Source of the DNA: Taenia hydatigena
Lineage: Eukaryota > Platyhelminthes > Cestoda > Cyclophyllidea > Taeniidae
Direction of reading: 5' to 3'
DNA: 64,000 bases
Assembly (NCBI GenBank): GCA_036345935.2
Contig: JADWOT020000010.1
Span: 10,135,412 to 10,199,411 of the forward strand
The position numbers and the translations under genes were made by a program. The first letter of the stretch is position 1, and every line of letters starts with the position of its first letter. Under the pieces are notes generated by a model, which saw only the letters and a program-made list of their open reading frames with translations, was not told the origin of the DNA and made no database searches. Positions 33,131-62,346 of the stretch are shown here, one piece after another.

Positions 33131-33189
33131 TTCTCCTCCACAGTCCATTTTCCTGTCACACCAAAATGCGGCTCTAACTTCCGAACCGA

Positions 33190-35045: not shown

Positions 35046-35239
35046 CAATTGCAGCCTTTACAATCTACAATCCAATCTGGTTTGTCAAATACTCTTCCGA
35101 AATAGACTTTTTCATCGGTGTGTGCATGTGCATTTCTGCAACTAAAGTCGATGTGATACCCTAATTTGGTATGATCACCACCTTGGCATTGTGCTCAAGT
35201 CATCCGCATGCATTCTTTTTCTCAGCAAGTGATGGGGAT

Positions 35240-35650: not shown

Positions 35651-35659
35651 GTGACATTG

Positions 35660-38079: not shown

Positions 38080-39450
38080 TTTAGCCAAATCAACTCTGAT
38101 TGCTAGTCCTAATCGCTTTGGCCACCAGACAGTGGTAGCGCATGCGGAATCACTTACTGAAGGTGACGCATGATGAAGTCCATAGGTTTCACCACGCTGG
38201 ATTTTTGAGACTGGTGCAGGTGGGATTAGGTCGGTCTAGGCTTTAGCTACTTCATAATGGGACTGCCTTAGTTTCTTACTCAATGCACTGCCTATCCCAT
38301 CATCGCATTATTTGTCTCTGCATACAATGTCACTTTCCCTCTTGATCCTGTAAAGTACCACTTCACCAATGAGCAATTTATCAGCAAATGCACCGGTGGG
38401 GTGTTGACTCTGCAATCAGTGCAAATGCCTCCCAACTGCATCATCCCCTCCAATAGCTTATGCTCGAAACTGATGCTCGTCCCTGATGCTAAGTGACTTG
38501 CCTCCCAATGGTTCTAAATTGCACTGATGCTATGCTGTTGCGCATAGTGAAGGCAGGATAGCAGCCACAAATGCAGTAAAATGTGCCTCTCCAACTGCCA
38601 TCGATTGACAAGATTTGAGTAGTATAATGCACACGGATGAAATGATGTGTGTGACATGGATTGACATGGAAAGATGTGCAGATGAAGGGTACCAAGTAAA
38701 AGTGACTGCAGTGCTTGATGCTGTCAAGGCACTTCTTTCAAAAGGCAAATTTCGCTTTGATGCAGCTCACCTTCGTGTAACATGCAGACTTACAAGTTTA
38801 CCAACGTGGGCGACAGCGAAAACTCAAAACCATCCTCGTGCAGCTGGGTCATATGGTGGTGGAAATAGTCCACGTAACTTAAGCCCTTCTTTTTGATCCA
38901 GACGTCTCAAGTTCTTTCCTTTGCTAAAAAACACAGAAATGGATGCTGCGATGCACTGCCAGTCCATTGGCGAGTGACCGTGAGGGTGAAGAAGTCGGTG
39001 TCTCACGACACTTGCAATGATTATATGATAGTCTTTCAAAGCGGTCTTTCTACATTGCCTAACCACGCAAATCAATGTGGAGGAAGTGTGTGACACGGGC
39101 TGCTTGCTTCTGACTTGGTCTGAACTGGAGTGAGCTGTTGCGATTATGCTGCAATTGGTAAAACTAATCACCCACGCTGAATTTGCCATCCTCACCATTG
39201 GTCAATCTGCTGCACAATCACAACCTCATCATAGAAAACCTGAGTTCGCATTACTAATGACCACATTGTGTTTTGTTAACGTCGAATCACGACTAATGCG
39301 CTACGAGATGGGCAGCTTGCTTCCACAACATTTCGACTGACGACCATGATTGAAGGTTTGTGGTAAGCAAGCTCACGGCACGACAACTCAAACATTTATA
39401 ATGGCGTAAGAAGTTGTTCGCGTAGGTGACAACGGTTTCTCCATTCATAC
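38080..39450 (+). repeat. Module F, P1/IR2 shared copy
   Basis: Direct to 33,190-34,150, inverted to 61,380-62,346. The frame 38,615-38,896 (plus, 93 codons) contains DEGYQVKVTAVLDAVKALL and TCRLTSLP. This copy is the hinge shared by the two large inverted repeats. Confidence 0.7.
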
Positions 39451-39479
39451 AGGTACATCAAAATCGCTGATTAGTTCAT

Positions 39480-39735
39480 TTTGCCCAAAAAGAATACTAC
39501 GACATGCATATGTGCGATGAGGACAGGGTAAGGCACGCAATCCATACAAAGTATGTCCACTACATCGTCATTTGCGAAAAACCGGTGAAATGATTTTTGT
39601 CCATTATGCTTCAAGCTACAAGTACACACGTGGGCGAGACCAGGTGCTGGTGCTGGCAAAGTCTGCTTGGACATTTCAATGCCCAGCATTTACACTGTCC
39701 TACTTCTCCATTCGGTTCGTGCAGATCTTTATATG
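39480..39735 (+). pseudogene. Unknown protein remnant, left mirror
   Basis: Mirror of the open frame at 61,097-61,354. It keeps TGEMIFVHYASSYKYTRGRD and VLVLAKSAWTFQC, but the upstream half is shifted and holds a stop. Confidence 0.4.
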
Positions 39736-40454
39736 AGGCACACTATGGTAATAAAAGTACAAGTCACCCCACATTCAGGCATGGACGGCTTTTGCTGACG
39801 CACAGCGTCATGAGCAAAAACTGTGAATCGGATGAATAAGTGGAACTGACGTCTCCTTGCGTACCTTTTATTTACAGGAATTTAAAGTCAACAAAGCGTG
39901 ATAAGAGCCACTACGGAATACGAATGAGAAAGGCCGCACAAAGTCATGATAATTTGGGCCCTGCCTGACACAAAAGAATTTCAATTATTACAAGTTTTCT
40001 TTTGCGTGTCGAAGCTTCCCTTTCGGAGCTACTTAACACCTCTCAGCATCTCTGTTATTCCTAATGTAACAAAATTGCATTGGTCTACTTTTTAGATTTT
40101 AACCTGAAGCAGTGTGATTTATAATGACAGCACGTCAATTTGAGAGCCTTCGGTGATCGGAATCTTGCCTACAATGTTGCCGCTCGTTTCATTTCAATAG
40201 CACGGATAAGCGGAAGGTAGCCAACAACAGGTGCCGATCTCTGTGCATTACTGCAGAGTGGATAAGCTAACCGATATTATAATATCCTGTCGCATATATC
40301 TCACATCTGCTACGCGATTGGTCCGTCGATGCTTCTCATCCATTCGCTTTTCAATCCGCATCGCTAGATTTATGGCAAATCTCTCCAGTCAAACAGAAGC
40401 AGACTCTGAATTGATTCGTCTATATAATGGTGATACAGCAGGAGAAAGGAAGCA

Positions 40455-41030
40455 AGAAATCGACCTCTCGGCCTAAAGCCCTGTAAGCCAAGAAAACAAA
40501 GTCTACTTGAAGTTCGTAGTGGATCGGTTTTCTTAAATTCCTCCCAGCTCTAATGCCCAACTATAGAGCTCTATTGCCAACAAGCAAAAAACGATTAATG
40601 CACTCCGAGAATTTGCACTTTGATGGGAGACCAGTGTATGCACAAGCTCGAAATGGCTTATTTCAAGGCAGTGCAAAGCCCTTCTATCCATTCACTTAAA
40701 CTTAAGTCAAAATTGGCTGTGCCGTTGTAGTTAAATCAACTTGAAATGAACGGAGTAATTTGGGCTGCCAGTGATTTCCACCCTGATTAGTCATGAGTGG
40801 AAGCAGGCATCCTACCCATTGTAAGCGCAGCTTTTCTTGGTGAAAACAAGGTCTACGATGGTGGTGAGCTGCAGTGTGGGTGCATGCTGATTTGATGCAT
40901 GTAAGCACGATGCGGATGGCAGAAGGTGCCTCCAGTCAGAGCCCTCAGTATGCGATGGCTCCACTGCACACGTCCATGTGCAAAGTTTGTGCGTTCGTGA
41001 TAGAAGACTAGAGACAATCTTGTCTTTGCA
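40455..41030. other. P1 left-arm-only segment (about 600 b)
   Basis: Right-arm homology passes from 41.03k to 40.45k at about 60,335, so this stretch is inserted on the left or lost on the right. No motif recognised. Confidence 0.55.
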
Positions 41031-41560
41031 CATTTTAACATCAATCGTTCCAAAGCTGTTTAATACAAGCATCAAGCTAACAAATCTGTGTTCTTTATTT
41101 TTTGCAGCAGCAAAAGCACAGATATGTGTCATTTGACTTATCAAATATTTCCTCCGGATGCAAGTACAAGGTGACACTTCTATTAATTCGCGACACTGCG
41201 TGATGGTCCGTTAGTGACTAGCACACTTTATTAAAGTTAATCACTTGGGTCACAGCTTCTAATTACTAGAAGCTCTTTCAATCAACTATGCGCTATCGTG
41301 TCTTTGTGCAAGCCATGCATCAGTTTATAAATGGAACCTGTCATGCAAAGTGCCTGTGCACAACACCAAGTAGAGAACCTTCTGAATTAGCCAAGCCTGA
41401 TGAGCTAATCCCGGTGAGAGTAGAAGGCGCCCTTGTTCCACACTCCGACGTACCTCACTTTACCAACCATCACATTACTAGACGGCAGTAAACGACTAAC
41501 AGAACGACTGACCTCATCACGCACCGATCGACCAATTAATCTTCACACCCACCTACATCC

Positions 41561-41592
41561 CACCCACCCATCGACCGACCGACCGACTGACT
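41561..41592 (+). repeat. CGAC tetranucleotide repeat
   Basis: Short run of CGAC units preceded by CACC units. The mirror locus at 59,791-59,850 has a longer array. Confidence 0.8.
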
Positions 41593-42261
41593 AAGCAACT
41601 AGCCAACCCACCAACAAATAAACAAGCACAGCTGACATACTAGATACGATTTGTCTACCTTGACGTCACCTCATCAGGCTGACAGCCGACCAATCAAGGT
41701 TGTCCGTTGTGGGTAAACACAACACATCAACATCACGCTTGACATAACATCCACCCTTGTTGCATGCTAAACAAACTTCAAACTGGAATTACGACTGCCT
41801 TTTCCTTTTCCTTCGTTCCTTATTTGCGAATTAACCACCCTCTCTTTCTCCTCTTCATGAGAGTTACTTCCTCGCCAATTATGGATGGCATATATCGACT
41901 GAACTGCAGCATTTTACACGTTAGCTGACATGAATGCATCCCAAGTGCATCCAAACATCTAACTTCCCTCACTTGCACACAAACACTCTACTCATGCAAA
42001 AGGCGAGCATTAAACACCACAAAGCAGAGAACCGATTAATTGTCACAAATATTTTCTTCACTTCCCAATATTAGCTACTACTACTAAAAAGTGGTGGGAC
42101 CATTTCAAACTGAAAGTATCAGAAAGTATGCACCAATACCGTATGGTACGGCTCGACGTATGTAGGAGAGAGGAATTCGGACACGGTTCAGTAGAAGAGG
42201 CAAATCACTTGCTCGTACTGAGTCAACTGTGAGGGTGTTGTTACACAATGCAGCCCGACAA

Positions 42262-42365
42262 GGACATTGGATGAACAAACTGCGAATGTGCTGCAGCAGT
42301 GGACGATAGAGGATGCTTGGCGCCAAGAGCATTACGGTACCATCTGGGAATTGAAGTCGAGCGCT
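42262..42365 (-). repeat. Module K, inverted copy
   Basis: Inverted to 4,304-4,411 and to its P1 mirror 59,018-59,119. Confidence 0.65.
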
Positions 42366-43011
42366 GCAACAGCGAGTGATGATGGCGCGACTAAAGATTT
42401 GAAAGAGCATTGGTACAGGCGTCTGAGGCACTCTAACTCACCCCGTAGTCGGCAGTCGACTGTATGGGACTACTGCCTCACTAGGTCGCGAGTGAAGCCT
42501 TCAGCCATTGTTAATTAAAACAACGACCAAAGTAAATGTGCAAGTACGGATTTTTAATGTAGTTTGAAATTACATTTAAAATGTAGCAAAATACAAGGAC
42601 CCAGTAATTATACACGGAAAGGCGTGTTTGTTGCGCAGAAAATTAAGATGATGCGATAAAACTTTTTGCAATGATTTTAAATGTGTGATCGCGTTCTGTG
42701 TGAATATCTCTAAAGCATAGGTTTTGGTGAATTAGACGTCAAGTTGCTTAAGGCTAAGCCTTGCGGTTGAATGGCTAGAAGCAACTTGGTGAATAGGCCT
42801 CCCATCAAATGTGGTAACGAGCATGCTTTGACGAAATGGCCAACAACAATCAAGCTATTGGAACACGTTGTGAGGGAGCCTTTGAGGACACTTGTGCCAG
42901 ATTGAAGCGCCTCAAATTCCGAAATTCTCTATTTGTCGCATTTATAGAATTTTCACAATGGAAAATGTCGGCGTGGAAGGTAAGGACAGACGATGACACA
43001 CCAAATCCCAG

Positions 43012-43030
43012 CATGGTGGTGGTGGTGGTA
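43012..43030 (+). repeat. GGT microsatellite
   Basis: Five to six GGT units. The mirror CCA run is at 58,354-58,370. Confidence 0.8.
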
Positions 43031-43199
43031 GGTGCTGTAATTTCTGGGTTCCAATAAATCAGCTAAGTAGCTTTGGGTCGGATCAACTTATTTGACAATT
43101 GCAGTGTGTTGCTGCGAGAGCCGCGTTGGTGAGTTTGCTGTCGGCGACTCGGCAGGGCAGTAATTCCCTACCACATCTTTTATCAAAGCAAGCTCCAGT

Positions 43200-44270
43200 G
43201 GCTAGACTATCTACTCTATAGCTTTATTCTAGTAAGACATACAGCCCTCGCCATTCTTAGCATCAGCGTACAGTGAGATTTTGCCTCAAACATTCTTCCT
43301 CTATGTAATCCACCTTCTGAGCGATGCGGCTTAACCGCAACATATTTGTCGTCCAAATGGAGACGTTTGTCGTGCATTCCGAAACAGAACGACATCACTG
43401 GTGTCTTATAAGTCTTTGATAATTTATAAGCCCTCCGCTTCATACCACACTGCCTTAGGTGTCTTAGTCTAGCCAATTTTGTCCATCAACATTGTGCATT
43501 TGAAACGATTAGAACGCCACATTGAATACCTCGATGCGATACTGGAGGCCCTAGGTGTACGCGACGAAAATGTTGCATAAAATCACACCTATCACAGTCC
43601 TCTTCCCAAAAACCTACACTTTGTGTTTATTGGCCTGAGTTGCTGGTAACTGTGGCAAAATGAATTATTCGAGGGTTAGAGCGCTAGAGTTAGCGCTGCA
43701 TCCTCCTCTCCATCTGAAATTAACGCTTTCGCCGCAGTGTTGCTATCAGTGGACCAATGAGCCTTCCCGACTAAGGTCAGAGAGTGAGTGAGACAACCTA
43801 AGAACGAATCGCCGTTGTACAAGCGAAAGGCCGATACGTCATACACCTTACCTGGTGAATGAGTCCCAAATGTATTGCTGGTGATGCCCCATACAACAGA
43901 GGCTGAAGTTAATAGCGAGAGTCGTAGTTATCTGCACGGGAATCGGCTCTCCCCATCTGTCTGCTAAAACGCTCCTTTGAGGAAAATTCCTTGCATACGT
44001 TAGCATTTATTTAGCAGCGCTACCAAATGCATTTGCATGTTAGGTGAAGAAAGTAAATTGCGATGACTGAGTTCTCACTTGGCTCCAAACACTTGGAGTC
44101 AGAATATTTTATCTCTGCATGGAAAAGTCTTTTTGTATATAAGTGATTTACCGTTCTTCTCAGTCTATAACATTTTTCCTTCTTCACCTCAAGGATAGCT
44201 TTACCAGACCTCGTACGTGAACCCATTGTAGACCGCGCTTAATTCATCCATAATAGCACTGAGGCTAACT
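43200..44270. other. P1 left-arm-only segment (about 1.07 kb)
   Basis: At the mirror point (about 58,050-58,070) the right arm continues without it. TGGCT occurs at both ends. The longest frames (43,216-43,476 minus; 44,020-44,226 minus) are unassigned, and no terminal inverted repeats were seen. Confidence 0.55.
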
Positions 44271-44329
44271 CACTGGCTGACCATCTAGCTTCTGGACAGA
44301 AGTGAAATGCAACATTTCGCAAAAGGGTG

Positions 44330-44560
44330 GTCAGTGAGAGAACTGCATCATTCGCCCACCTCAATTCACCAGTTCTTCTAGGGTCTCGAAGCAGTGGCCT
44401 AGACAAGTCAACACGCATGGCGAATCATTCGGTGACCCTGTCTCGCGTTGAGGTTGGTTTGTCCACGTTGGAGAATGAGGAAGCAGAAGTGAGCGTCTTA
44501 ATCGAGCGAAATATGTGGAGGTAAACGTAAATGCTTGATCTAACAAACTCATTTTCACCT
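44330..44560 (-). repeat. Module E, diverged copy
   Basis: Shares GACAAGTC-ACACGCATGGCGAA with 55.94-55.97k. It lies inverted to the E copy at 46.14-46.50k in the same P1 arm. Mirror at 57.76-58.00k. Confidence 0.6.
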
Positions 44561-44708
44561 GCGAGCCACGTAAAACCCGAAGTTGAACCGGAGTAACTCT
44601 AAGCAGTTGAAGGTGATTCGAAGCGAATGGGCTACACGTGCTGGGCATTGTATTACTTCTCTTAGTCTCCTATCTCGTACTTATAAGATGCCTTGCAGAC
44701 ACAGACCA

Positions 44709-44856
44709 TCAGAGCGAAGTATTGCACTGTTCGATTACCTTGACACACCGCAAGACCGACTTCATGCTGCACACTGCCTCACATAAATTGACGATGTCTG
44801 TGCAACTGAGGTGATTGCAAATCTCGATTCGCAGATGTGGAAGAAGCCTCTCCATC
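44709..44856 (-). pseudogene. F-box-like protein, copy f, N-terminal fragment
   Basis: Starts MERLLPHLRIEICNHL, continues TDIVNLCEAV and SMKSVLRCVKV, then leaves the family after about 40 codons and stops. Only the F-box-like segment remains. The frame is open upstream into the 5' flank. Its mirror at 57,480-57,627 has an in-frame stop. Confidence 0.6.
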
Positions 44857-45195
44857 GTACACACTGCAGATTCGCTTAATGAATCCGAACGCCAACTTGC
44901 GATGTTTTCGCTGTTAGCAGAGATCGCTTGAATAAGGCGCATAAATGAGCGCCTATTTAGAATCAACTCTCTCTGTAGTGTAAGCGGTTAGTCTGACTTT
45001 GCTACTGACTGCACAATCTGCCGCGTTTATTCCACCCAAATGCTTCTTGCAATTTTGCGAGCAATTAGGTTGGCCCATGCTGTAACTTTTCCCACCCTAA
45101 CATTTAATTGCAACCTATATTCCACTTGAATTCCTTGTTGTCTCCTTTTGAAAACGGTGCTCGCATTAATGTGGCAGACTGTGGAACAACAAGGC
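44857..45195 (-). repeat. 5' flank of F-box unit, copy f
   Basis: Diverged copy of 3,340-3,650. The LADCAV-like reading is seen as the bases GCGGCAGATTGTGCAGTC on the complementary strand. Mirror at 57.15-57.47k. Confidence 0.6.
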
Positions 45196-46142
45196 AGGCG
45201 TTTTGTTTCATTTTCTCATTTCCATTTATCGCACGCAACGTAAGTCCCTTTTTGCAGTTTTAGTTCAATGCTCCAAGCATTCCAGTGGGCCTTGTCGCGA
45301 CTCCTCACTTCCAACGCCAAAGGTAGCAGCCAAGTCCACAGCAAGCAGTCTGATGACAGCGGTGCCAAGCACCGACGAGAAGGGGAGCTTGGGTAAATAG
45401 CACATGCATGGTATGCTTATCTGTGAATTCCATAAACCTCATGTTTTAATCTTTCGTTTTTACCCTGCTGAGCAATGCTTGCTCTCTTCTATTTCTTTTA
45501 GCAATGGGCTGTATCAGCAATGTGTTCCTTGGATATATGATAGAAACAAAAGAGTGAATGCAGTGTCCAATGCCACTTGTAAACACACGATATTACAGAG
45601 CCCAACGATTGTGGCATCCGTCTCGGAAGAGCGTTTGAAAGTGTTTACAATCGGACCCCACAAATATTGCTGACTGCGTAAGTTGCGCTTCTTCCTTTGC
45701 TGTAAAACAGGAAAAGCATGTGACTGCATGGCATTTGGTGGTGTCAAGCCAACTAAATGGCAAGGTCATGGTGTCAGCTTCATAAATCCACTTGTTTAGT
45801 TACAGGTGATTGTGGAGTCAATGATATTCACATCGTCAAATGCTACTTTGTGGCAATATCAGTAGGTGGTGTGCCGAGCACTGTTGAGGCAAATCTACTC
45901 AGTGTCTGCTGTACTAATTTTGTGGGCGATGAGTAGGGAGGAGAGAGTGAGGAAAGTATATGTAGAGATTGCACATTGTTTATGCACCCACAATTTGCAT
46001 CGATAGAGGTGCCAAAGTTTCCATCTCAAGCATCAAGCTCTATTTCGCATTTGTTGCTCTTCAAAGGGAAAGCATATCGTATTCAAAGTTTCTAAGTGGA
46101 GCGCATAAGATAAAGGACGGTTGTTAGCTGGGGTCCCCAAAT

Positions 46143-46500
46143 GCAGCAACGGAGAACAAGGTGGTCATTCATGAAGCGTGTTGTGACACGCAGATGAGTG
46201 CACGTGACCCACTCACTTGACCTCAGTCTTAAGACCTCAGAGTCGATCTGGTCTGACATTCACCTTAATCTCCACTCCTTTCAATAAACAAAGACGCTTA
46301 TTTCTGCGCCTTGTTGTCCACCGCAGACTGACTTACTTCAGTGCGAGGCATGCATCATTGCGTGGTTCGCCATGCGTGTCGACTTGTTTAGGACACTTCT
46401 TCGTGACGGTGGCATGACAAATGCAGCCATAGCACCGCCTGCACCGCTTCCATTAATTGCCACACAACCGATGCAGCTGATGTTGGATGCAAACGTTGTA
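46143..46500 (+). repeat. Module E, P1 left arm
   Basis: Direct copy of 26,281-26,640. Its P1 mirror is 55,838-56,193, nearly identical. Confidence 0.7.
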
Positions 46501-47612
46501 ATTGAAGCGATTCGCATTTCATTGCACTTATATGACAACCAAAAATAGAAGAAACAACTTTCGGCGTGCTTGCCTTAATTGGGTGTGGCAGATGAGGCCG
46601 TTGTTGTCGAATGCATCAAAATTCGAAAGCGGGATTTTTGGACCCAATAACAGATCATTGCGCATCAGTTGTGCGCATAAAGCCCAAACTAGCATTGCAT
46701 TAATGGGATCAGATCTTGTGAGACATTAATGCTTACGAAGAAGTCTTTTGTAGCAGTGACATTCTAATTTCCCCGTAGTTAACTAAGCCATCCCGAACTC
46801 GGTGTCATTATGTGCTGCCGCCTTGGGTGCCTCAGACGATATGGGTTGCGGACCTGCACTTCAACGTTCCAACTCCACCATGCTTTAGCGATGATTCCTC
46901 TGCCTTACTGCCTTCTTCGGGTGTTGTTGCGCAGGACTTTGGAGGATAGTCAGGGCGTCGAACCTGATGCATACCCTATAAACTGTGTGCAGCATATTAA
47001 TTTTGACTACTTGAGATGCTATACCTCGATTCCATCCTGAAGATGTGATGAAACTTAGTATCGAACGAGACCATGCCATCTGCTTTCGTGCATAAGGACA
47101 GTAAGACCACTAGCATGATTGGAAGGTCATGTTGAGCCATCGAGGCACAGCGTCCGAAGAATGAAATGCTCGAGTTCATTGCATCAGGATGTAGCATCCC
47201 CAAAGTACCGCATCTAAGCCTGAGAGCCATTCGTGAACTCAGTGACTAGCCGTGTAAAATTACTCCCTCCCGTATGCAAAGCCTCACAACATAGCAGCAC
47301 AAGAAGGATAATTTTGATTAAAGATCAACTAATCAAATCTAAAACGATATTTAGGTAGTGTTTGCCTACATTCCCCACAGTCCTGGTGGACAGTAATCCA
47401 TGAGGATGGAAAGGAAACTGAAATCCACGTAGGCAGCTGTACTCAAAGCAACTGCACATAATGAATGAATTAATTACGGGAGGATATTAGCTAAGAATAA
47501 CCCTCATTGACCCTTTTATGCGTCCCTTTAACCATTCATCCACTTCGGTCATCACTCACCGCCTGACGCAGCCTTTGATCTCAGGGACGGAAATCAGAAC
47601 TCCACTGTTGCA

Positions 47613-49238
47613 AAAGGCCTCTTACCACACCTCAATCTTTCGCATAATCTAACGTTTTAATGTGTTGTCACCATTTGGGCTAATATATCCTTCTTAGCCT
47701 CTTTCCAACTCTACCATTTAATCACTTCTCGTCTAAAATGGGTTGACCGCTATTGCAGCACCTAAAATCATGCTACCACACTCATCAGCACATCTGTGGT
47801 GCACCGATGGGAGGAGGAATGTGTCAAAGTGCCTTTAAAGTCATCGCCATACAAAATTTGCGGATCCATCTCACAGTCTTCTCGTAGGTCAAAGAGCCAA
47901 TTGACATCTACTGTTTTCCTTTCCTTAAAACTAGTCATTAGTGTGGTGATAGGTCCGCAGAGAAGAATTTGCGTAATCGTCGTATATCATCTTGGCTCCG
48001 AGAATGCATGTTACCGACTTCTCAGCCACGTCCTTCTACTCTGATGCAGCGGAATGGTTTAGTCAAGAGGTATTCTGTTTACGCAGTGATTGTTGCACAT
48101 CTAACACAGTTTGTGTTGCACTGGCGACAAGTGAAGCACTACTTTATTGCAGGGCCATTAATGAGCCAAGCAAAGGCATTAGGTGTGGGTTTGGCACGTC
48201 AACAGGCAAATCTGGTGCTTTACTTTCCCCAAAATTAGCGTCAGCACACCTATCAGTGCTTTAGAAGACTGGGTGTTTAACAAGACCTGTCATCATAGAA
48301 ATGGACACCGAGTAAGATAAATTAGAAATTTGGGATTGGACTGCTGCTAAATAAGGTAAATCGTCTGAGTAGGATAGAACTCAACATCTTGCAGCGCGTC
48401 AGCGCAGTTTGTCCCTGCTCTAACCAGACCACCTTTGACTACTGACTAAGTGGCTAAGTAAACAAGTCGAAGTCACTGTGCTCTCAGGTGGAAGCGAGAG
48501 CTCAAACAACAGCAAGCTTAATTCGACGATCGCCAATCCAAATGCTCTATGCATTCGCATTAAATTAGAAGCCAAAATTGCTGCATTTTGAAGAGAGCTG
48601 ATTTTGATTATTTACTGCAGACTGCTGTGAATTGCCTTATATGCCATATGCCTTACTGTGGATTTTGCGCTCTCAACAAACGCTAACTTACGAGGTTATG
48701 AAATTCGTGTCCAAAATTACTCACAAATTGCAAATCCCTGCTCGCCTTTTGTGGAATCTTGTTGTCGAAACGCAAAGCCAGATTAGCTGCCCAACTACTT
48801 AGACATTCTTCAAAACTAACAATCACTTTTAAAATCGGCCACACAGAGGACTTTGTGCTGGGTTGCAAACTGATCCACCATCAATGTCCTGGCAATCGCA
48901 GAGAAGGAATCGTTTGGTTAGATTATAGCTGCTCTTGCGCATTTCACTCAAGGCCGCCAAAAGTTAGGCAGTCCTAAACTGTTCGCATTTTGGCATGAGA
49001 AGATGCACAACCGGTGATCAGCAGCACCGCCTCCTTTATATGCGCCCACCCAATCACAATTTTGCAGACTCAAGTGCTAGGAATGCAATCTTGGCGAGCT
49101 TAATGTCAACGTTCAACAAAAAACACATAGGCAATGAAAAAAATTCTAACCGGGAAGAAAGAGTTGCAATGCAATCTTGTGTACCAAAGCAAGGTGCGGA
49201 ATAGCGGGATTGCGTAAGGAGACAGGCATTTACTCGAT
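47613..49238 (-). repeat. F-box unit tail and 3' flank, copy g
   Basis: Mirror of 53,049-54,680, practically unchanged. Same orientation as copy c at 19,913-21,037. All short frames in this stretch are duplicated exactly in the right arm. Confidence 0.8.
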
Positions 49239-50930: not shown

Positions 50931-51049
50931 CTACATTTTTAATTAAGATTTTTTCGCTCGTGTATCCATTCTTTCCACAGTGCCGCAACGTTTCATCGTT
51001 TGTGTCATGCGAATTTGTTTATACTTGACAAGTGATCCAGCAATAGCGA

Positions 51050-51530: not shown

Positions 51531-52031
51531 ACACCCCATACGTTGTCAGAATTTGGCATTTTAAGTCGCACTTCATCATACATTGGACCTACCCGTCAAA
51601 ATGGACAGAGAAGTTGAAAGTGTGTTGCAGCCACTTGATTTGTCAGAAAATATGAGTAAAGAAGAAAACAGGAAAACAAACCAAAACCTCTACATTGCCA
51701 CCGCTCAGTCTGAAACGGAGGATTGGTCCACCCTTTAAAATGTGGCAAGTGGAAACCCAAATGGAATAGTAGTTGATATTAAATAGTAGAGTGGGAAACG
51801 TTACAGCCTTGATGGAATATAGTTGTTGGCAAAGAGGCATGAAGCATTTGGCTGAAGTAAACTTGGCAGATTGTGCAGTCGGTGGCCTCGCCAGGCTAAA
51901 CACTTGCCTCACGGCAATGGCTAACTCGATTCAGGCGCACATTCATGCGTTTCACTCAAGCGAACCCTACTAATAGCGAATAAATTACAAGCCGGAATTG
52001 GGATTCACTTACTGAATCTGTGAGGCGCACG
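51531..52031 (+). promoter_or_regulatory. 5' flank of the intact F-box-like gene
   Basis: Conserved in front of every copy that keeps its 5' end. It contains a 66-codon frame (51,773-51,973) ending about 58 bases before the ATG, with LADCAVGGL and NTCLTAM shared with 3,396-3,596. The frame is broken in copies c, e and f. Regulatory function is inferred from position and co-duplication only. Confidence 0.4.
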
Positions 52032-53048
52032 ATGGAAAGGCTTCCTCAACATGTACGAGTCGAGATTTGCAAATACCTCGATGCCATGGACATCGTCGAT
52101 GTGTGTGAGGCAATGCCCTACATGAGGTCGGTTCTCAGGTCTCTCACCATCAAAGGCATTTTGCGCAGTTACGTGAGACAAATGCAGTGGGTGGACGCAA
52201 AACTTTGTTGCATGCTGTATTCAACCCGTGCCTTTGTAAGGAGAGAAGCTGACCCAGAGGTGAATGCGCAATCAGAGGGAATGGTTCTAATCAGCGCTCT
52301 ACGATACTACCATGAATTTTGCCATTTCACTCCGCGGCACATATACCATGTCCTATCCAATTGTGGCAGGATCATTCGATTTTTATTGCTTGGATGCAGC
52401 GTAATGGATGTGGGTCTCCTTCAGCCATTTTGGCCCTCCCTCGTTTATGCGACTTGTAAGTGTGGACGACCATTGCTGCAGAACTACCCTGATGGACCTG
52501 ATTCCATTGATGTAGTGGCCCACTTGACTAACTTTGAGATTCATATCAACCCAGAAAGCATAGAAGCAAGAGATGTTTGTGATCTTAGGTCCTTCGAGAC
52601 TTCTTACCTCTGTTCATTCGACGGTGTTGTGTACGTGATTGATTCTGCATTGCAATGCCACTTTGGGTGCAAGATTCCACTTGGACTAAGGCGCCTCATT
52701 TTCCGCATCAGTGACCTCGCTGCCAATAGGACGACTCGCCCTCCAATGCTCTTCATCCTCGACACGATTTCGTTGGCGACAAGAGATATGACGGATAGGG
52801 GTGATCATTTTGCATGTCTCATAGCCAACCTTCACAAACTTGACAGAATTACATTGCAAGCGTCTGGCGGATCTGCAGAGAGGTTTACACCTTATAATTG
52901 GTGGAGGGCATGTCGTCTGCACCAACGGGGTGGAAGGTTCGTGTGGCTGTATGAGGTGTTCCAAATGGCTGCGTTGCAAATAGTCAATATGGACGCTGCA
53001 GGCAGAAGTCAAGAAGAAAGTGTGCAATCGAATTTGTCTCCACAGTGA
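52032..53048 (+). CDS. F-box-like protein, intact 338-residue copy h
   Basis: A single uninterrupted frame from ATG at 52,032. Residues 1-40 (MERLPQHVRVEICKYL, AMDIVDVCEAMPYMRSVL) fit an F-box: L-P near the start, two amphipathic helices and the conserved V-C pair. Such proteins usually recruit Skp1/Cul1 and present substrates for ubiquitination, in cytoplasm or nucleus. The ~300-residue remainder carries several hydrophobic segments (IIRFLLLGC, LRRLIFRIS, PPMLFIL), repeated Cys and Trp residues (a NWWRACRLHQ motif near the C-terminus) and a polar tail; no named repeat domain or membrane segment is evident. An in-frame GTG four codons upstream is less likely as the start. AATAAA lies only at 54,139, about 1.1 kb downstream. 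It spans the inner end of P1's right arm: codons from about 60 onward are mirrored, the first part is not. F-box identity is moderate, function unknown. Confidence 0.62.
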   Translation: MERLPQHVRVEICKYLDAMDIVDVCEAMPYMRSVLRSLTIKGILRSYVRQMQWVDAKLCCMLYSTRAFVRREADPEVNAQSEGMVLISALRYYHEFCHFTPRHIYHVLSNCGRIIRFLLLGCSVMDVGLLQPFWPSLVYATCKCGRPLLQNYPDGPDSIDVVAHLTNFEIHINPESIEARDVCDLRSFETSYLCSFDGVVYVIDSALQCHFGCKIPLGLRRLIFRISDLAANRTTRPPMLFILDTISLATRDMTDRGDHFACLIANLHKLDRITLQASGGSAERFTPYNWWRACRLHQRGGRFVWLYEVFQMAALQIVNMDAAGRSQEESVQSNLSPQ

Positions 53049-54680
53049 ATCGAGTAAATGCCTGTCTCCTTACGCAATCCCGCTATTCCGCACCTTGCTT
53101 TGGTACACAAGATTGCATTGCAACTCTTTCTTCCCGGTTAGAATTTTTTTCATTGCCTATGTGTTTTTTGTTGAACGTTGACATTAAGCTCGCCAAGATT
53201 GCATTCCTAGCACTTGAGTCTGCAAAATTGTGATTGGGTGGGCGCATATAAAGGAGGCGGTGCTGCTGATCACCGGTTGTGCATCTTCTCATGCCAAAAT
53301 GCGAACAGTTTAGGACTGCCTAACTTTTGGCGGCCTTGAGTGAAATGCGCAAGAGCAGCTATAATCTAACCAAACGATTCCTTCTCTGCGATTGCCAGGA
53401 CATTGATGGTGGATCAGTTTGCAACCCAGCACAAAGTCCTCTGTGTGGCCGATTTTAAAAGTGATTGTTAGTTTTGAAGAATGTCTAAGTAGTTGGGCAG
53501 CTAATCTGGCTTTGCGTTTCGACAACAAGATTCCACAAAAGGCGAGCAGGGATTTGCAATTTGTGAGTAATTTTGGACACGAATTTCATAACCTCGTAAG
53601 TTAGCGTTTGTTGAGAGCGCAAAATCCACAGTAAGGCATATGGCATATAAGGCAATTCACAGCAGTCTGCAGTAAATAATCAAAATCAGCTCTCTTCAAA
53701 ATGCAGCAATTTTGGCTTCTAATTTAATGCGAATGCATAGAGCATTTGGATTGGCGATCGTCGAATTAAGCTTGCTGTTGTTTGAGCTCTCGCTTCCACC
53801 TGAGAGCACAGTGACTTCGACTTGTTTACTTAGCCACTTAGTCAGTAGTCAAAGGTGGTCTGGTTAGAGCAGGGACAAACTGCGCTGACGCGCTGCAAGA
53901 TGTTGAGTTCTATCCTACTCAGACGATTTACCTTATTTAGCAGCAGTCCAATCCCAAATTTCTAATTTGTCTTACTCGGTGTCCATTTCTATGATGACAG
54001 GTCTTGTTAAACACCCAGTCTTCTAAAGTACTGATAGGTGTGCTGACGCTAATTTTGGGGAAAGTAAAGCACCAGATTTGCCTGTTGACGTGCCAAACCC
54101 ACACCTAATGCCTTTGCTTGGCTCATTAATGGCCCTGCAATAAAGTAGTGCTTCACTTGTCGCCAGTGCAACACAAACTGTGTTAGATGTGCAACAATCA
54201 CTGCGTAAACAGAATACCTCTTGACTAAACCATTCCGCTGCATCAGAGTAGAAGGACGTGGCTGAGAAGTCGGTAACATGCATTCTCGGAGCCAAGATGA
54301 TATACGACGATTACGCAAATTCTTCTCTGCGGACCTATCACCACACTAATGACTAGTTTTAAGGAAAGGAAAACAGTAGATGTCAATTGGCTCTTTGACC
54401 TACGAGAAGACTGTGAGATGGATCCGCAAATTTTGTATGGCGATGACTTTAAAGGCACTTTGACACATTCCTCCTCCCATCGGTGCACCACAGATGTGCT
54501 GATGAGTGTGGTAGCATGATTTTAGGTGCTGCAATAGCGGTCAACCCATTTTAGACGAGAACTGATTAAATGGTAGAGTTGGAAAGAGGCTAAGAAGGAT
54601 ATATTAGCCCAAATGGTGACAACACATTAAAACGTTAGATTATGCGAAAGATTGAGGTGTGGTAAGAGGCCTTTTGCAAC
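53049..54680 (+). repeat. 3' flank and tail of the intact F-box unit
   Basis: Reference copy for tails elsewhere (1-575, 19.9-21.0k, 25.2-25.8k, 27.5-27.7k, 47.6-49.2k). The frame 53,419-53,604 is mirrored exactly in the left arm, but it is degenerate in older copies such as 24.5-24.7k, so it is not called as a gene. Confidence 0.75.
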
Positions 54681-54867
54681 AGTGGAGTTCTGATTTCCGT
54701 CTCTGAGATCAAAGGCTGCGTCAAGCGGCGAGTGATGACCGAAGTGGATGAATGCTTAAAGGGACGCATAAAAGGGTCGATGAGGGTTATTCTTAGCTAA
54801 TTTCCTCCCGTAATTAATTCATTCATTATGTGCAGTTGCTTTGAGTACAGCTGCCTACATGGATTTC

Positions 54868-54917
54868 AGGCCAGCGCTTTCAACCCGTCAAATATACTCT
54901 GCTTTAGCAATGAATCA
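54868..54917. other. 49-bp right-arm insertion
   Basis: Interrupts otherwise near-identical mirror sequence; the left arm has no counterpart at about 47,420. It explains the 49-base step in paired-coordinate sums. Confidence 0.7.
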
Positions 54918-55837
54918 GTTTCCTTTCCATCCTCATGGAATACTGTCCATCAGGACTGTGGGGAATGTAGGCAAACACTACCTAAATGTCGTTTTAGATT
55001 TGATTAGTTAGTCTTTAATCAAAATTATCCTTCTTGTGCTGCTATGTTGTGAGGCTTTGCATGCGAGAGGGAGTAATTTCACACGGCTAGTCACTGAGTT
55101 CACGAATGACTCTCAGGCTTAGATGCGGTACTTTGGGGATGCTACATCCTGATGCAATGAACTCGAGCATTTCATTCTTCGGACGCTGTGCCTCGATGGC
55201 TCAACATGACCTTCCAATCATGCTAGTGGTCTTACTGTCCTTATGCACGAAAGCAGATGGCATGGTCTCGTTCGATACTAAGTTTCATCACATCTTCAGG
55301 ATGGAATCGAGGTATAGCATCTCAAGTAGTCAAAATTAATATGCTGCACACAGTTTATAGGGTATGCATCAGGTTCGACGCCCTGACTATCCTCCAAAGT
55401 CCTGCGCAACAACACCCGAAGAAGGCAGTAAGGCAGAGGAATCATCGCTAAAGCATGGTGGAGTTGGAACGTTGAAGTGCAGGTCCGCAACCCATATCGT
55501 CTGAGGCACCCAAGGCGGCAGCACATAATGACACCGAGTTCGGGATGGCTTAGTTAACTACGGGGAAATTAGAATGTCACTGCTACAAAAGACTTCTTCG
55601 TAAGCATTAATGTCTCACAAGATCTGATCCCATTAATGCAATGCTAGTTTGGGCTTTATGCGCACAACTGATGCGCAATGATCTGTTATTGGGTCCAAAA
55701 ATCCCGCTTTCGAATTTTGATGCATTCGACAACAACGGCCTCATCTGCCACACCCAATTAAGGCAAGCACGCCGAAAGTTGTTTCTTCTATTTTTGGTTG
55801 TCATATAAGTGCAATGAAATGCGAATCGCTTCAATTA

Positions 55838-56193
55838 CAACGTTTGCATCCAACATCAGCTGCATCGGTTGTGTGGCAATTAATGGAAGCGGTGCAGGCG
55901 GTGCTATGGCTGCATTTGTCATGCCACCGTCACGAAGAAGTGTCCTAAACAAGTCGACACGCATGGCGAACCACGCAATGATGCATGCCTCGCACTGAAG
56001 TAAGTCAGTCTGCGGTGGACAACAAGGCGCAGAAATAAGCGTCTTTGTTTATTGAAAGGAGTGGAGATTAAGGTGAATGTCAGACCAGATCGACTCTGAG
56101 GTCTTAAGACTGAGGTCAAGTGAGTGGGTCACGTGCACTCATCTGCGTGTCACAACACGCTTCATGAATGACCACCTTGTTCTCCGTTGCTGC
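55838..56193 (-). repeat. Module E, P1 right arm
   Basis: Mirror of 46,143-46,500. The plus frame 55,798-55,998 contains AINGSGAGGAMAAFVMPP and then STRMANH. The same frame is in the left mirror, but the 26.5k copy is shifted, so coding is unsupported. Confidence 0.7.
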
Positions 56194-57149
56194 ATTTGGG
56201 GACCCCAGCTAACAACCGTCCTTTATCTTATGCGCTCCACTTAGAAACTTTGAATACGATATGCTTTCCCTTTGAAGAGCAACAAATGCGAAATAGAGCT
56301 TGATGCTTGAGATGGAAACTTTGGCACCTCTATCGATGCAAATTGTGGGTGCATAAACAATGTGCAATCTCTACATATACTTTCCTCACTCTCTCCTCCC
56401 TACTCATCGCCCACAAAATTAGCACAGCAGACACTGAGTAGATTTGCTTCAACAGTGCTCGTCACACCACCTACTGATATTGCCACAAAGTAGCATTTGA
56501 CAATGTGAATGTCATTGACTCCACAATCACGTGTAAATAAACAAGTGGATTTATGAAGCTGACACCATGACCTTGCCATTTAGTTGGCTTGACACCACCA
56601 AATGCCATGCAGTCACATGCTTTTCCTGTTTTACAGCAAAGGAAGAAGCGCAACTTACGCAGTCAGCAATATTTGTGGGGTCCGATTGTAAACACTTTCA
56701 AACGCTCTTCCGAGACGGATGCCACAATCGTTGGGCTCTGTAATATCGTGTGTTTACAAGTGGCATTGGACACTGCATTCACTCTTTTGTTTCTATCATA
56801 TATCCAAGGAACACATTGCTGATACAGCCCATTGCTAAAAGAAATAGAAGAGAGCAAGCATTGCTCAGCAGGGTAAAAACGAAAGATTAAAACATGAGGT
56901 TCATGGAATTCACAGATAAGCATACCATGCATGTGCTATTTACCCAAGCTCCCCTTCTCGTCGGTGCTTGGCACCGCTGTCATCAGACTGCTTGCTGTGG
57001 ACTTGGCTGCTACCTTCGCCGTTGGAAGTGAGGAGTCGCGGCAAGCCCCACTGGAATGCTTGGAGCATTGAACTAAAGCTGCAAAAAGGGACTTACGTTG
57101 CGTGCGATAAATGGAAATGAGAAAATGAAACAAAACGCCTGCCTTGTTG

Positions 57150-57479
57150 TTCCACAGTCTGCCACATTAATGCGAGCCCCGTTTTCAAAAGGAGACAACA
57201 AGGCATTCAAGTGGAATATAGGTTGCAATTAAATGTTAGGGTGGGAAAAGTTACAGCATGGGCCAAATTAATTGCTTGCAAATGCACAAGAAGCATTTGG
57301 GTGGAATAAGCGCGGCAGATTGTGCAGTCAGTAGCAAAGCCAGACTAAACGCTTACACTACAGTGAGAGTTGATTCCAAATAGGCGCTCACTTATGCGCC
57401 TTATTCAAGCGATCTCCGCTAACAGCGAAAACATCGCAAGTTGGCGTTCGGATTCGTTGAGCAAATCTCCAGTGCATAC
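57150..57479 (+). repeat. 5' flank of F-box unit, copy i
   Basis: P1 mirror of 44,857-45,195, about 94% identical. Confidence 0.6.
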
Positions 57480-57627
57480 GATGGAGAGGCTTCTTCCACA
57501 TCTGCGAATCGAGATTTGCTAACACCTCAATGGCACAGACATCGTCAATTTATGTGAGGCAGTGTGCAGCATGAAGTCGGTCATGCGGTGTGTCAAGGTA
57601 ATCGAACGGCGCAATACTTTGCTCTGA
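57480..57627 (+). pseudogene. F-box-like protein, copy i, N-terminal fragment
   Basis: Mirror of copy f. MERLLPHLRIEIC is followed directly by a stop, then NGTDIVNLCEAV and SMKSVMRCVKV before the family homology ends. It is non-functional. Confidence 0.65.
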
Positions 57628-58353
57628 TGGTCTGTATCTGCACGGCATCTTATAAGTAGGAGATAGGAGACTAAGAGAATCAATACAATGCCCAGCGCGT
57701 GTAGCCCATTCGCTTCGAATCACCTTCAACTGCTTAGAGTTACTCCGGTACAACTTCGATTTTCACGAGCCTCGCAGTTGAAAACGAGTTTGTTAGATCA
57801 AGCATTTACGTTTATCTCCACATATTTCGCTCGATTAAGACGCTCACTTCTGCTTCTTCGTTCTCTTACGTGGACAAACCAACCTCAATTCGAGACAGGG
57901 TCACCGAATGACTCGCCATGCGTGTTGACTTGTCTAGGCCACTGCTTCCAGACCCTAGAAGAACAAATGGATTGAAGCGGGTGTATGATGCAGTTCTCTC
58001 ACTGACCACCCTTTTGCAAAATGCTGCATTTCACTTCTGCCCAGAAGCTAGATGACCAGCCAGCTTGGTTTGATAAAAGATGTAACAACAAATAACTGCA
58101 ATTGCAAAATTAGTTGATTTGACCCAAAGCTACTTAGATGATTTATCGAAACCCAGAACTTACAGCATCTCATTCATCGTAATCTTTATTGACCAATGGA
58201 TCGTCAAATCGTAGCTGCACCTGAAGCGACTGGCAACTATTGCTACCATTCATGAAGTCGCAATAATTAGCAGTGGGAAATGCGATTTCATTCATTCAGA
58301 AATGGGCACACAGAAAGACTTGATTTGCGTCGGGTCTTTTGGGAAGGAGATCA

Positions 58354-58370
58354 CCCACCACCACCACCAT
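58354..58370 (+). repeat. CCA microsatellite
   Basis: Mirror of the GGT run at 43,012-43,030. Confidence 0.8.
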
Positions 58371-59017
58371 GTTGGGATTTGGTGTGTCATCGTCTGCCCA
58401 TACCTTCCACGCCGACATATTACAATGTGAAAATATGATAAATGCGACAAACGGAGAATTTCGAAATTGGAGGCGCTTCAATCTGGCACAAGTGTCCTCA
58501 AAGGCTCCCTCACAACGTGTTCCAATAGCTTGATTGTTGTTGGTCAATCCGTCAATGTATGCTCGGTACCACATTTGATGGGAGGCCTATTCACCAAGTT
58601 GCTTCTAGCCATTCAACCGCAAGGCTTATCCTTAAGCAACTTGACGTCTAATTCACCAAAACCTATGCTTTAGAGATATTCACACAGAACGAGATCACAC
58701 ATTTGAAATCATTGCAACAAGTTTCATCACATCATCTTGATTTTCTGTGTGATAAACACGCCTTTCCTTATATAATTATTAAGTTCGTGTAGCATGCCAC
58801 ATTTTTAGATGTAATTTGCAACTACATTGAAGAATCCGTATTCGCACATTTACTTGGTCGTTGTATTAATTGGCACTGGCTGGAGGCTTCACTCGTGACC
58901 TAGTGAGGTAGTAGTCTCATATAGTCGACTGCTGGCTACAGGATGAGTCAGAGTGCCTCAGTCGCCTGTACCAATTCCCTTTTCAACCTTTAGTCACACC
59001 GTCATCACTCGCTGTTG

Positions 59018-59119
59018 CAGCGCTCGACTTCAATTCCCAGATGGCATCGCAATGCTGGTGGTGCCGAGCGTCCTCCATCATCCACTGCTGCAGCACATTC
59101 GCAGTTTGTTCTTCCAAGA
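59018..59119 (+). repeat. Module K, P1 right arm
   Basis: Direct copy of 4,304-4,411 and mirror of 42,262-42,365. An open frame of 115 codons (58,953-59,300) crosses it; the left mirror frame (42,105-42,431) is also open for 108 codons with about 75-80% similar residues. No family recognised. Confidence 0.6.
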
Positions 59120-59790
59120 TCCTTATCGGGCTGTATTGTACAACAACACCCTCACAGTTGACTTAGTACGAGCAAGCGACTTGCCTCTTCTACTGGACCG
59201 TGTCCGATTTTCTCCCTTCTGCATACGTCGAGCCGTACCATGCGGTATTGGTGCATACTTTCTGGTACTTTCGGCTCGAAATGGTCTTATCACTTTGTAG
59301 TAGTAGTAGTTAGTGTTGGGAAGTGAAGACTATTTGTGACAATTAATTAGTTCTCTGCTTTGTGGTGTTTACTGCTCGCCTTTTGCATGAGTCGAGTGTG
59401 TGTATGCAAGTGAGGGAAGTTAGATGGTTGGATGCACTTGGGTTGCATTCATGTCAGCTAACGTGTAAAATGCTGCAGTTCAGTCGATCTATTCCATCAA
59501 TAATTGACCAGGAAATAACTCTCATGAAGAGGAGGAAGAGGGGGTGGTTAATTCGCAAATAAGGAACGAAGGAAAAGGAAAAGACAGTCGTAATTTCAGT
59601 TTGAATTTTGTTTAGCATGCAACAATGGTGGATGTTATGTCAAGCGTGATGTTGATGTGTTGTGTTTACCCACGACGGACAATCTTGATTAGTCAGCTGT
59701 CAGCCTGATGAGGTGAGGTCAAGGTAGACAAATTGTATCTGGTCTATCAGCTGTGCTTGTTTATTTGTTGGTGGGTCGGCTAGTAGCTTA

Positions 59791-59850
59791 GTCAGTCGGT
59801 CGGTCAGTCGGTCGGTCGGCCGGTTGGTCGATGGGTGGGATGGGGGCGGG
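59791..59850 (+). repeat. GTCG tetranucleotide repeat
   Basis: Run of GTCG/GTCA units with interruptions, followed by GGGT units. Longer than its mirror at 41,561-41,592. Confidence 0.8.
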
Positions 59851-61096
59851 TGTGAGGACCAATTGGTCGATCGGTGCGTGATGAGGTCAGTCGGTCTGTT
59901 AGTCGCTTAATGCCGTCGGGTGATGTGATGGTTGGTAAAGTGAGGTACGTCGGAGTGTCGGACAAGGGTGCCTTCTACTCTTACCGAGATTACCTCATCA
60001 GGCTTGGCTAATCCAGAAGGTTCTGTACTTGGAGTTGTGCACAGGCATTTCGCCATGACAGGTTCCACTTATAAACTGATGCATGGCTTGCATAAAGACA
60101 CGATGGCACATACTTGAGTGAAAGAGCTTCTAGTCGTTAGAGGCTGTGACCCAAATGATTAACTTCACTAAAGAGTGCTAGTCACTAACGGACTATCATT
60201 CAGTGTAGGGACTTGATTGAGGGGTCACCTCGTATTCGCATCCGGGTGTAGTTTTTGATAGGTTAACTGAGGCAGATCTGTGCTTTTGCTGCTGCAACAA
60301 ATCAAGATTACAAATTCATTAGCGTGATGTTAAAATGTGCTTCCTTTCGCCTGATGTATCATCATCGTGTAGGCGAATCAGTTGAGAGTCTGCTTCTGAT
60401 TGGCTGGAGAGATGTGCCATAAATTTAGGGATGTGGATTGAAAAGCGAATGGATGAGAAGCATCGACCAGCCAATAGCGTAGCAGATGTGAGATACTATG
60501 CGACAGGACATTACAATATTGGTTAGCTTATCCACTCTGCAGTAATGCACAGAGGTCGGTACCTGTTGTTGGCTACTTCCCGCTTATCCGTGCCATTAAA
60601 ATAAAACGAGCGGCAGCATTGTAGGCAAGGATTCGATCAACGAAGGCTCCCAAATTGACGTGATGTTATTATAAATCACACAGTGCTTCAAGTTAAAATC
60701 TAAAAAGTAGGCCAATACAACTTTTTTACATTAGGAAAAACAGAGATGCTGAGAGGTGTTAAATAGCTCCGAAAGGCAAACTTCGACCCGCAAAAGGGAA
60801 TTTGTAATCATTGAAATTCCTTCGTGTCAGGCGGGGCTCAAATTGGCATGACTTTGTGCAACCTTTCTCAGTCGTGTCCTGTTTTACGGTAGAGATCTCT
60901 TCTTCTGTGGTGGCCCTTATCACGCTTCGTTAACTTCAAATTCCTGTAAATAAAAGGTACGCTGGGAGATGTCACTTCCATTTACTTATCCGATTCACAG
61001 TTTCTGCTCATGTCGCTGTGCCTCAGCAAAAGCTGCCCATGCCAGGATGTGGGGTAACTTGTTCTTCTGATACAATAGTGCTTTTCATATAAGGAT

Positions 61097-61354
61097 CTAC
61101 ACAAACCAAATAGAGAAGCAGGACAGTGTGAATGCTAGGCATTGAAATGTCCAAGAAGACTTTGCCAGCACCAGCACCTGGTCTCGCCCACGTGTGTACT
61201 CGTAGCTTGAACCATGATGGACAAAAATCATTTCACCGGTTGTTTTGCAGATGACGATGTAGTGGACATATTTTGTATGGATTGTGTGCCCCATGCTGTC
61301 CTCACCGCAAGTATACGCGTTGTAGTGTCCTTTTTGGCTAAATGAACCAAACAA
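61097..61354 (-). CDS. Open frame of unknown origin, possibly transposase-derived
   Basis: Eighty-five codons on minus with HTIHTKYVHYIVICKTTGEM, then IFVHHGSSYEYTRGRDQVLV and LAKSSWTFQC. The pattern of a strand, a turn with TGE-[MI], another strand and a His/Asp-containing segment faintly resembles DDE-type (IS5/Harbinger-like) transposase cores, but the resemblance is weak and no catalytic triad can be placed. The mirror at 39,480-39,735 keeps the second half only. It has a poor start codon context and no clear neighbours, and may be an exon or transposon fragment. Confidence 0.2.
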   Translation of the reverse strand: MFGSFSQKGHYNAYTCGEDSMGHTIHTKYVHYIVICKTTGEMIFVHHGSSYEYTRGRDQVLVLAKSSWTFQCLAFTLSCFSIWFV

Positions 61355-61379
61355 TCAATGAATTAGGTGTGCCCGTATG

Positions 61380-62346
61380 AATGGAGAAACCATCGTCACC
61401 TCAGTGAACAGCTTTTTACGCCATTTTAAATGTTTCCGTTGTCGTGCTGTGAGCTTGCTTACCACAAGCCTTCAATCATGGTTGACAGTTGAAATGTTGC
61501 GGAAGCAAGCAGCTCATCTCGCAGAGAATTAATCGTGGTTCGGCGTGAACAACACACAATGCAGTCAGAGCGAAGCTAACAAAGGGTTTAATTGATGGGT
61601 TGTAAGTTAGGCAGCAAAATGGCTAATGGCGAGGTTTGCAAATTCGGCGTGGGTAATTAATTGCAACAATCGCAGTATAGTTGCAACAGCTCACTCCGAT
61701 TCAGACCAAGGCAGAAGCAAGCAGCCATTGTTGCACAATTCCTCCACATTGATCCGCGTGAATGGGCAACGAAAAAGACCACCCTGAAGAACCATCATTT
61801 AAGCATTCCAAGTGACGTGAGACACCTACCTTCTCACCCTCATCGTTACTCGCTAACAAAGTAGTGATTCATTGCAGCATCCATTTCTGTGTTTTTTAGC
61901 AAAGGAAAGAACTTGAGAAGTCTGAATCGATAAGGATGGCTTAAGTTACGTGGACTATTTCCACGAGCGCATGACCCTACTGCACGAGGAAGATTTTGAG
62001 TTTCCCCTGTCGCCACGTTGGCAATCTTGCCAGTCTGCATGCTGCACGAAAGTGAGGTCCATCAACGCAAAAATTGCAATATAAACGACGTGCCTTGACA
62101 GCATTAAACTCTGCAGTCACTTTTACTTGTTATCCTCCATCAGTACATTTTGTGGATGTTAATCTATGAAATACACCTCGTTTAATATGATTGCGTTACG
62201 CTACTCGTGTCTTGTCAGTAGACGGCAGTTAGAGCAACATGGTGGTGTGGCAGGAGGACGGACTGTGGAGGAGAAGCACATTCTACTGCAAATGTGTCTG
62301 CTACCACGCCTTTGGTTCGCGTAGCAACATGACATTGATGCAGTTG
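61380..62346 (-). repeat. Module F, P1 right outer end
   Basis: Mirror of 38,515-39,450 and same orientation as 11,660-12,650. The conserved reading survives as VKARRLYCNFCVDGPHF with a stop just before it. It ends at about 62,346, where module G starts. Confidence 0.7.

Follow-up and report, generated by a model that had tools for sequence, protein, structure and literature searches.

Long palindromes whose arms undergo conversion are commonly seen as compensation for a sex chromosome that does not recombine. Among the closest described systems are the palindromes of the mammalian X and Y chromosomes, in which conversion holds the arms at >99% identity (PMC8981503, PMC3723533), and the inverted repeats of nematodes, which carry divergent or convergent pairs of paralogous genes (Zhao et al. 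2007, PMC1803023). In the latter work, the repeats are compared between species and have short arms (2.2 kb, with a 126 b spacer, in the example given), and gene conversion is proposed for arms that are closer within than between loci (PMC1803023).

Here we describe palindrome A of the hermaphroditic tapeworm Taenia hydatigena, whose 308.5 Mb assembly has been called the largest sequenced for the family (PMC8384839). The structure belongs to a known kind; its setting is unusual. Like the mammalian X and Y palindromes, it has long gene-bearing inverted arms that are closer to one another than to the arms of a sister palindrome; unlike them, it probably does not lie on a sex chromosome, only its core is homogenised (the outer arms are 82-88% identical), and it has several sister copies per genome. 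With the nematode repeats it shares head-to-head paralogues and arms that are closer within than between loci, whereas its sister loci lie in one genome, its arms reach 10 kb, and the point at which ancestry switches can be mapped along the arm.

Results

Genomic setting

We analysed a window of 64,000 nucleotides, C10:10,135,412-10,199,411, where C10 is an 11.84 Mb contig (JADWOT020000010.1), together with a 264 kb region that surrounds and includes the window and contains one gap of 4,990 N; the genome searched comprised 306,030,797 bases in 1,354 contigs. At a threshold of >=70% identity over >=300 bp, 97.7% of the window has another copy inside the 264 kb, and palindrome A is therefore one element of a duplication patchwork. 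At the same threshold, 82% of the whole 264 kb matches elsewhere in the same region, in which inverted and direct pairs are balanced (321 vs 317). The patchwork extends over ~1.26 Mb (C10:9.145-10.411 Mb) and bears an F-box/GTPase-like gene family. The protein encoded in the right arm of A has at least 119 matches in the genome, 91 of which lie in this interval; the total is a lower bound, as 118 of 1,144 candidates were scored, and some of the matches are pieces of one gene. Core sequence is local, with 48 of 57 and 72 of 76 listed matches falling within the C10 cluster, and the outer block is more widely scattered (21 of 61 listed matches lie outside C10). The outer block may have an old mobile origin.

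Palindrome A is itself enclosed by a larger gapped inverted arrangement (Table 1), in which five main inverted blocks are 94-98% identical and window positions 14,873-28,739 have no partner. Close relatives of the individual arms lie elsewhere on the contig. From 59,689 outward, the right arm is 99.0% identical to C10:9,189,000-9,192,239, and the left outer arm is 95.5% identical to the right outer arm of a sister palindrome, C, which is described below. A copy at C10 10.27 Mb matches the left outer arm mostly at 92-98%, with 88% in the innermost kilobase.

Geometry and arm identity of palindrome A

The original prediction, made from the letters of the window, was of an imperfect palindrome with 10-11.6 kb arms around a 2.1 kb centre, whose paired coordinates sum to about 102,300 near the axis; it called for a self-comparison as a check. 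Self-blastn of the window bears out this geometry. It yields four colinear inverted pairs, the inner two with coordinate sums close to the predicted value (Table 1), which together make up a left arm of 11.5 kb (38,589-50,081) and a right arm of 10.0 kb (52,205-62,234). In five shuffles of the window in 3-mer blocks, the best inverted self-match reached 30-37 bits.

Table 1. Features of palindrome A, its surroundings and its sister palindromes. Positions are in the window frame, except those of palindromes B and C, which are positions on C10.
Feature	Position	Strand	Remarks
Larger gapped inverted arrangement enclosing A	1,034-36,690 vs 71,269-96,216	.	right side lies beyond the window
Inverted pair 1, innermost	52,205-54,869 / 47,418-50,081		99.5%; coordinate sum 102,286; 5,328 bits
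Inverted pair 2	54,915-58,063 / 44,273-47,421		97.2%; coordinate sum 102,336; 4,843 bits
Inverted pair 3	58,355-60,329 / 41,070-43,028		88.3%; coordinate sum 101,383; self-blastn
Inverted pair 4, outermost	60,338-62,234 / 38,589-40,454		82.5%; coordinate sum 100,792; self-blastn
Left core arm of A	44,273-50,081	-	97.4% over 5,859 columns to 52,205-58,063 inverted
Right core arm of A	52,205-58,063	+	arm alignment
Left outer arm of A	38,589-43,028	-	82-88% to right outer arm
Right outer arm of A	58,355-62,234	+	82-88% to left outer arm
Left-arm insert, ~1.2 kb	43,029-44,262	.	mostly absent from right arm; present in B and C
Centre of A, 2.1 kb	50,082-52,204	.	unpaired in A; in C, inner end of the longer arm on both sides
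Deletion junction (inferred)	50,080-50,081	.	C 9,755,792-9,760,387 missing in A; 2-base overlap (BLAST ends and sequences)
Stop-free F-box/GTPase-like ORF, 342 aa	52,020-53,048	+	mostly within right arm
Left-arm gene copy	49,239-50,081	-	matches only residues 70-342; the N-terminal part with the F-box is lost at the central junction
Palindrome B	9,452,666-9,459,910 / 9,460,148-9,467,433		arms 98.8%
Palindrome C	9,752,333-9,757,964 / 9,760,339-9,765,970		arms 99.0%

Identity between the arms of A drops steeply with distance from the axis (rho -0.85 over 39 bins of 250 bases). Within the 19 bins of the arm alignment that reach to 57,004, identity is at least 98.4% in 17 and stands at 96.4 and 97.6% in the remaining two; the bins that end between 57,254 and 58,004 fall to 90-97%. 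Two bins at the 58.06-58.35k break, the site of the ~1.2 kb insert in the left arm, reach 59 and 77%, and the outermost 14 bins range from 75 to 93%.

A mobile element was considered as the cause of the structure and rejected: ten of the 85 listed window ORFs of >=90 aa gave 0 Pfam families at E <= 0.1, so no transposase or reverse transcriptase was seen among those ten. Rfam and tRNA scans of the window each returned 0 matches. The tandem repeats of the window amount to one 40-base array.

Sister palindromes B and C

The core of A is found inverted around an axis at two further sites on C10, namely palindromes B (9.46 Mb) and C (9.76 Mb). Among the matches listed (40 of 175 candidates scored), further copies lie at 9.30, 9.19 and 9.88 Mb, each lacking a nearby inverted partner. 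In a common 5.8 kb core frame, identity within palindromes is 98.3% for A, 99.2% for B and 96.6% for C, and the eight pairs computed across palindromes give 95.2-97.8%. The arms of C extend outward at 93.0% and 85.8%, contain no N and lose identity with distance from the axis (rho -0.90, 40 bins). Palindrome B has a single N at its axis, no outer continuation on the left and no outward drop (rho +0.46, 28 bins), its outer core being 100% identical; because of the N at its axis, B is not to be leaned on either way.

These features bear on the possibility that A arose during assembly, either from haplotype contigs joined head to head or from repeats evened out by read correction. Long-read error correction can even out near-identical repeats by itself, and SSPACE marks negative gaps with a single n, which would fit the one N exactly at the axis of B; there is also a 100-N gap in the 9.19 Mb copy, in addition to the 4,990 N in the flank. 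The window itself, however, is free of N, the N-free palindrome C repeats the same design, and the outer arms of A, only 82-88% identical, have diverged too far for alleles or for a simple artefact of fold-back. The T. hydatigena assembly was made with Canu, Pilon and SSPACE, but at 91% of the k-mer genome size it is not inflated overall (PMC8384839). We consider an artefact quite improbable.

Ancestry along the arms of A and C

We compared the left and right arms of palindromes A and C (A_L, A_R, C_L and C_R). Separate fresh origins of A and C predict arms that pair within palindromes along their whole length; a palindrome that predates the split of A and C and has a homogenised core predicts pairing within palindromes close to the axis and across them farther out. 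The pattern observed is the second, that of an older palindrome with a homogenised core. Quartet sites, given in the order AA/CC, A_R+C_L/A_L+C_R and A_R+C_R/A_L+C_L, number 38:0:0 in the innermost 1.3 kb (52,205-53,504), 18:7:0 at 53,566-55,740, 2:17:6 at 56,682-58,063 and 7:44:18 in the outer segment (58,355-60,186). In the two inner segments, AU tests favour the tree that pairs arms within palindromes and reject the others at p <=0.004; in the two outer segments they favour A_R+C_L/A_L+C_R and reject the others at p <=0.009. When larger sets of copies are placed in the tree, the inner segment unites (A_L,A_R) with a support of 100 and (C_L,C_R) with 99, the interval 53,600-55,640 places A_L, A_R and C_L together at 96, and the outer segment unites (A_R,C_L) at 97 and (A_L,C_R,B_R) at 99. 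Arms are closer within than across palindromes in the inner two segments only, and the reverse holds in the outer two. The cross-pairing of the outer arms (A_R with C_L, A_L with C_R) dates the palindrome to before A and C split, with the qualification that outer divergence is unequal (see below).

This result weighs on the rival view that A, B and C each arose anew when the core was recently duplicated in inverted orientation, through fold-back or template switching, with no ongoing conversion. A fresh copy would be of one age to its edge, whereas the outer arms pair across palindromes, and the arms of A and C run on colinearly into outer blocks at 82-93%. Different inner boundaries in A, B and C would suit repeated duplication, as would the closer relationship of the innermost arms within than between palindromes and the arms of B, which alone are of about even identity and end abruptly; yet replacement of only the inner arm from the other arm amounts to long-tract conversion. 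We therefore think an origin by fresh duplication unlikely. As to the 'recent inverted duplication' that the original prediction had offered, the inverted duplication stands and its recency does not, since the palindrome predates the split from its sister at 9.76 Mb; the core would look young because it has been homogenised. The proneness to intrachromosomal recombination that was predicted for such a structure gains support, as the switch between inner and outer ancestry is evidence of arm-to-arm exchange.

The divergence of the segments leads in the same direction. In the inner segment, divergence is 0.2% within A and ~3% between A and C, and in the outer segment it is ~10% both within A and between A and C (the Fisher table on this contrast was built from rounded counts). 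The inner contrast together with the outer equality means that a slow local mutation rate is no explanation. Divergence of the outer arms is unequal, at 11% between A_R and C_L and 7% between A_L and C_R, which is not predicted by a single copying of the whole palindrome, so that subsequent exchanges with other copies have to be assumed as well. In the outer segment, 18 sites back the third tree, and many of these lie clustered toward the segment's inner end. These 18 sites, the unequal outer divergence and the lack of an outward drop in B are points against a reading by conversion. A further such point is that polarised sites show no clear excess of the kind expected from GC-biased conversion (AT-to-GC 26 vs GC-to-AT 19).

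The centre of palindrome A

In 500-base tiles, the centre of A matches both arms of C at their inner ends with 96-98% identity, and A 50,080-53,504 is 96.6% identical to each C arm. The C arm runs on past the point at which the left arm of A ends, and both flanks from C come together at A 50,080-50,081; A therefore corresponds to a C-like palindrome minus ~4.6 kb across the axis. From this comparison we infer an asymmetric central deletion of ~4.6 kb in A (Table 1), which would have taken ~70 residues from the N-terminal end of the left gene copy. Central asymmetry through deletion has been cited as stabilising long inverted repeats (Zhao et al. 2007, PMC1803023).

Genes in the arms

The closest known system for the arm gene is FBXO4, an F-box protein with a GTPase-like domain, and in the right-arm protein a GTPase-like fold likewise follows the putative F-box region, with helices at residues 10-53 in the predicted model. 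Pfam F-box models match weakly (E 0.0097-0.13 in single family members), and the window's F-box_4 match falls below the curated cut-off. A sequence search of solved structures gave chance-level matches only. Compared with its five nearest copies, A_R gives dN/dS values of 0.12-0.23, and the right-arm gene has probably been kept open under selection, its product being a putative SCF-type substrate receptor. A fold predicted from four sequences was unusable (pLDDT 35).

Two database searches (3 and 7 hits) placed the relatives of the right-arm protein in Taenia solium, T. asiatica, Hydatigera and Echinococcus, all of them taeniids. We know of no sex chromosomes in tapeworms of this kind. Ampliconic sex-chromosome palindromes, which the original prediction had named as typical settings for structures of this size, are similar to A in arm length, gene content and within-palindrome identity; with related proteins that are taeniid only, and hermaphroditic cestodes reported to have similar coverage on all chromosomes (PMC9187692), that reading is unsupported and appears extremely improbable.

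Discussion

In palindrome A a short, unpaired centre is flanked by two long arms in inverted orientation, as in palindromes maintained by gene conversion, and from the sequence comparisons we judge A likely to be an old inverted duplication that was copied within the cluster and whose core was homogenised by arm-to-arm gene conversion. Such a history would have begun with an ancient inverted duplication of an F-box-family gene block in a taeniid tapeworm, after which the palindrome came to occupy several sites of the ~1.26 Mb cluster, namely A, C and probably B. Shared, colinear arms show its presence at more than one site, and the route by which it spread is a presumed one. Arm-to-arm recombination, whether gene conversion or repair synthesis templated by the other arm, would then have overwritten the inner ~1.3-4 kb; the tree switch indicates that this overwriting was separate in A and C, with one of these two processes as the presumed enzymology. 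The outer arms drifted and exchanged sequence with other copies of the cluster, as their 96-99% matches elsewhere show. Judged against C, an asymmetric loss of ~4.6 kb from the centre of A would have produced the unpaired 2.1 kb middle and deprived the left gene copy of its F-box end.

The words 'F-box' and 'palindrom' are absent from the main text of the T. hydatigena genome paper (PMC8384839), and the literature searched on tapeworm and flatworm palindromes with gene conversion, judged in part by title, yielded no earlier account. We tentatively put forward, as a possibility that falls somewhat short of probable, that sister palindromes of one lineage have multiplied within a single gene-family cluster of a hermaphrodite, their cores kept self-identical by conversion as their outer arms mixed with the cluster. 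If this is true, palindromic self-repair would be a general way to amplify and protect gene families and not a response to a missing partner chromosome. Several sister palindromes in the genome of a hermaphrodite would allow conversion to be studied without sexing or crossing, the ancestry switch point along the arm would serve as a measure of the reach of conversion, and palindrome A points to a gene-family cluster of >1 Mb.

Shared stretches and exchange among copies of the palindrome core

A 62-base stretch (window 48722-48782 and 53505-53565) is present in both arms of palindrome A, the palindrome of the window, as well as in the core copy at 9.30 Mb on contig C10. The sister palindromes B and C, at 9.46 and 9.76 Mb, which share the core of A, lack it in each of their four arms. 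The distribution of a 16-base stretch is the same (both A arms and the 9.30 Mb copy; none of the four B and C arms). At C10:9192236-9192239, the core copy at 9.19 Mb jumps from the equivalent of window position 56,244 (91% identity) to that of 59,689 (99%). This copy is a chimera, the outer part of which was recently exchanged with the right arm of palindrome A.

Inverted structures around and beyond the palindrome

Palindrome A is itself enclosed by a larger gapped inverted arrangement (blocks at 94-98%), which is younger than the outer arms of the palindrome (82-88%). Two further inverted structures are present in the window and its flank (Table). The window also holds, on the minus strand at 2366-3349, another open member of the F-box/GTPase-like family, which is 66% identical to the right-arm protein; a 95% copy of this gene is located at 93,947-94,927 (window numbering extended beyond its ends), on the opposite side of the larger arrangement.

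Table. Inverted structures in and around the window
Feature	Window numbering, extended	C10 (Mb)	Identity	Remarks
Larger gapped inverted arrangement	1034-36690 vs 71269-96216	10.136-10.172 and 10.207-10.232	94-98%	
Second inverted block set	9202-15893 and 32479-38808		81-90%	within window; axis near 23-24k
Small palindrome without spacer	-44491 to -43514	10.091	96.8%	matches its own reverse complement, 986 columns

Among the matches listed, the mirrored order of family members at C10:9.934-10.013 Mb, as well as at 9.145-9.170, 9.546-9.574 and 10.38-10.41 Mb, hints at more large inverted duplications in the C10 cluster. The block forming the outer arms of palindrome A recurs in opposite orientations on contig C1 of the same genome (5.41-5.42 and 5.90-5.95 Mb), and is also matched on C5 and C1278, so its palindromes may extend beyond C10.
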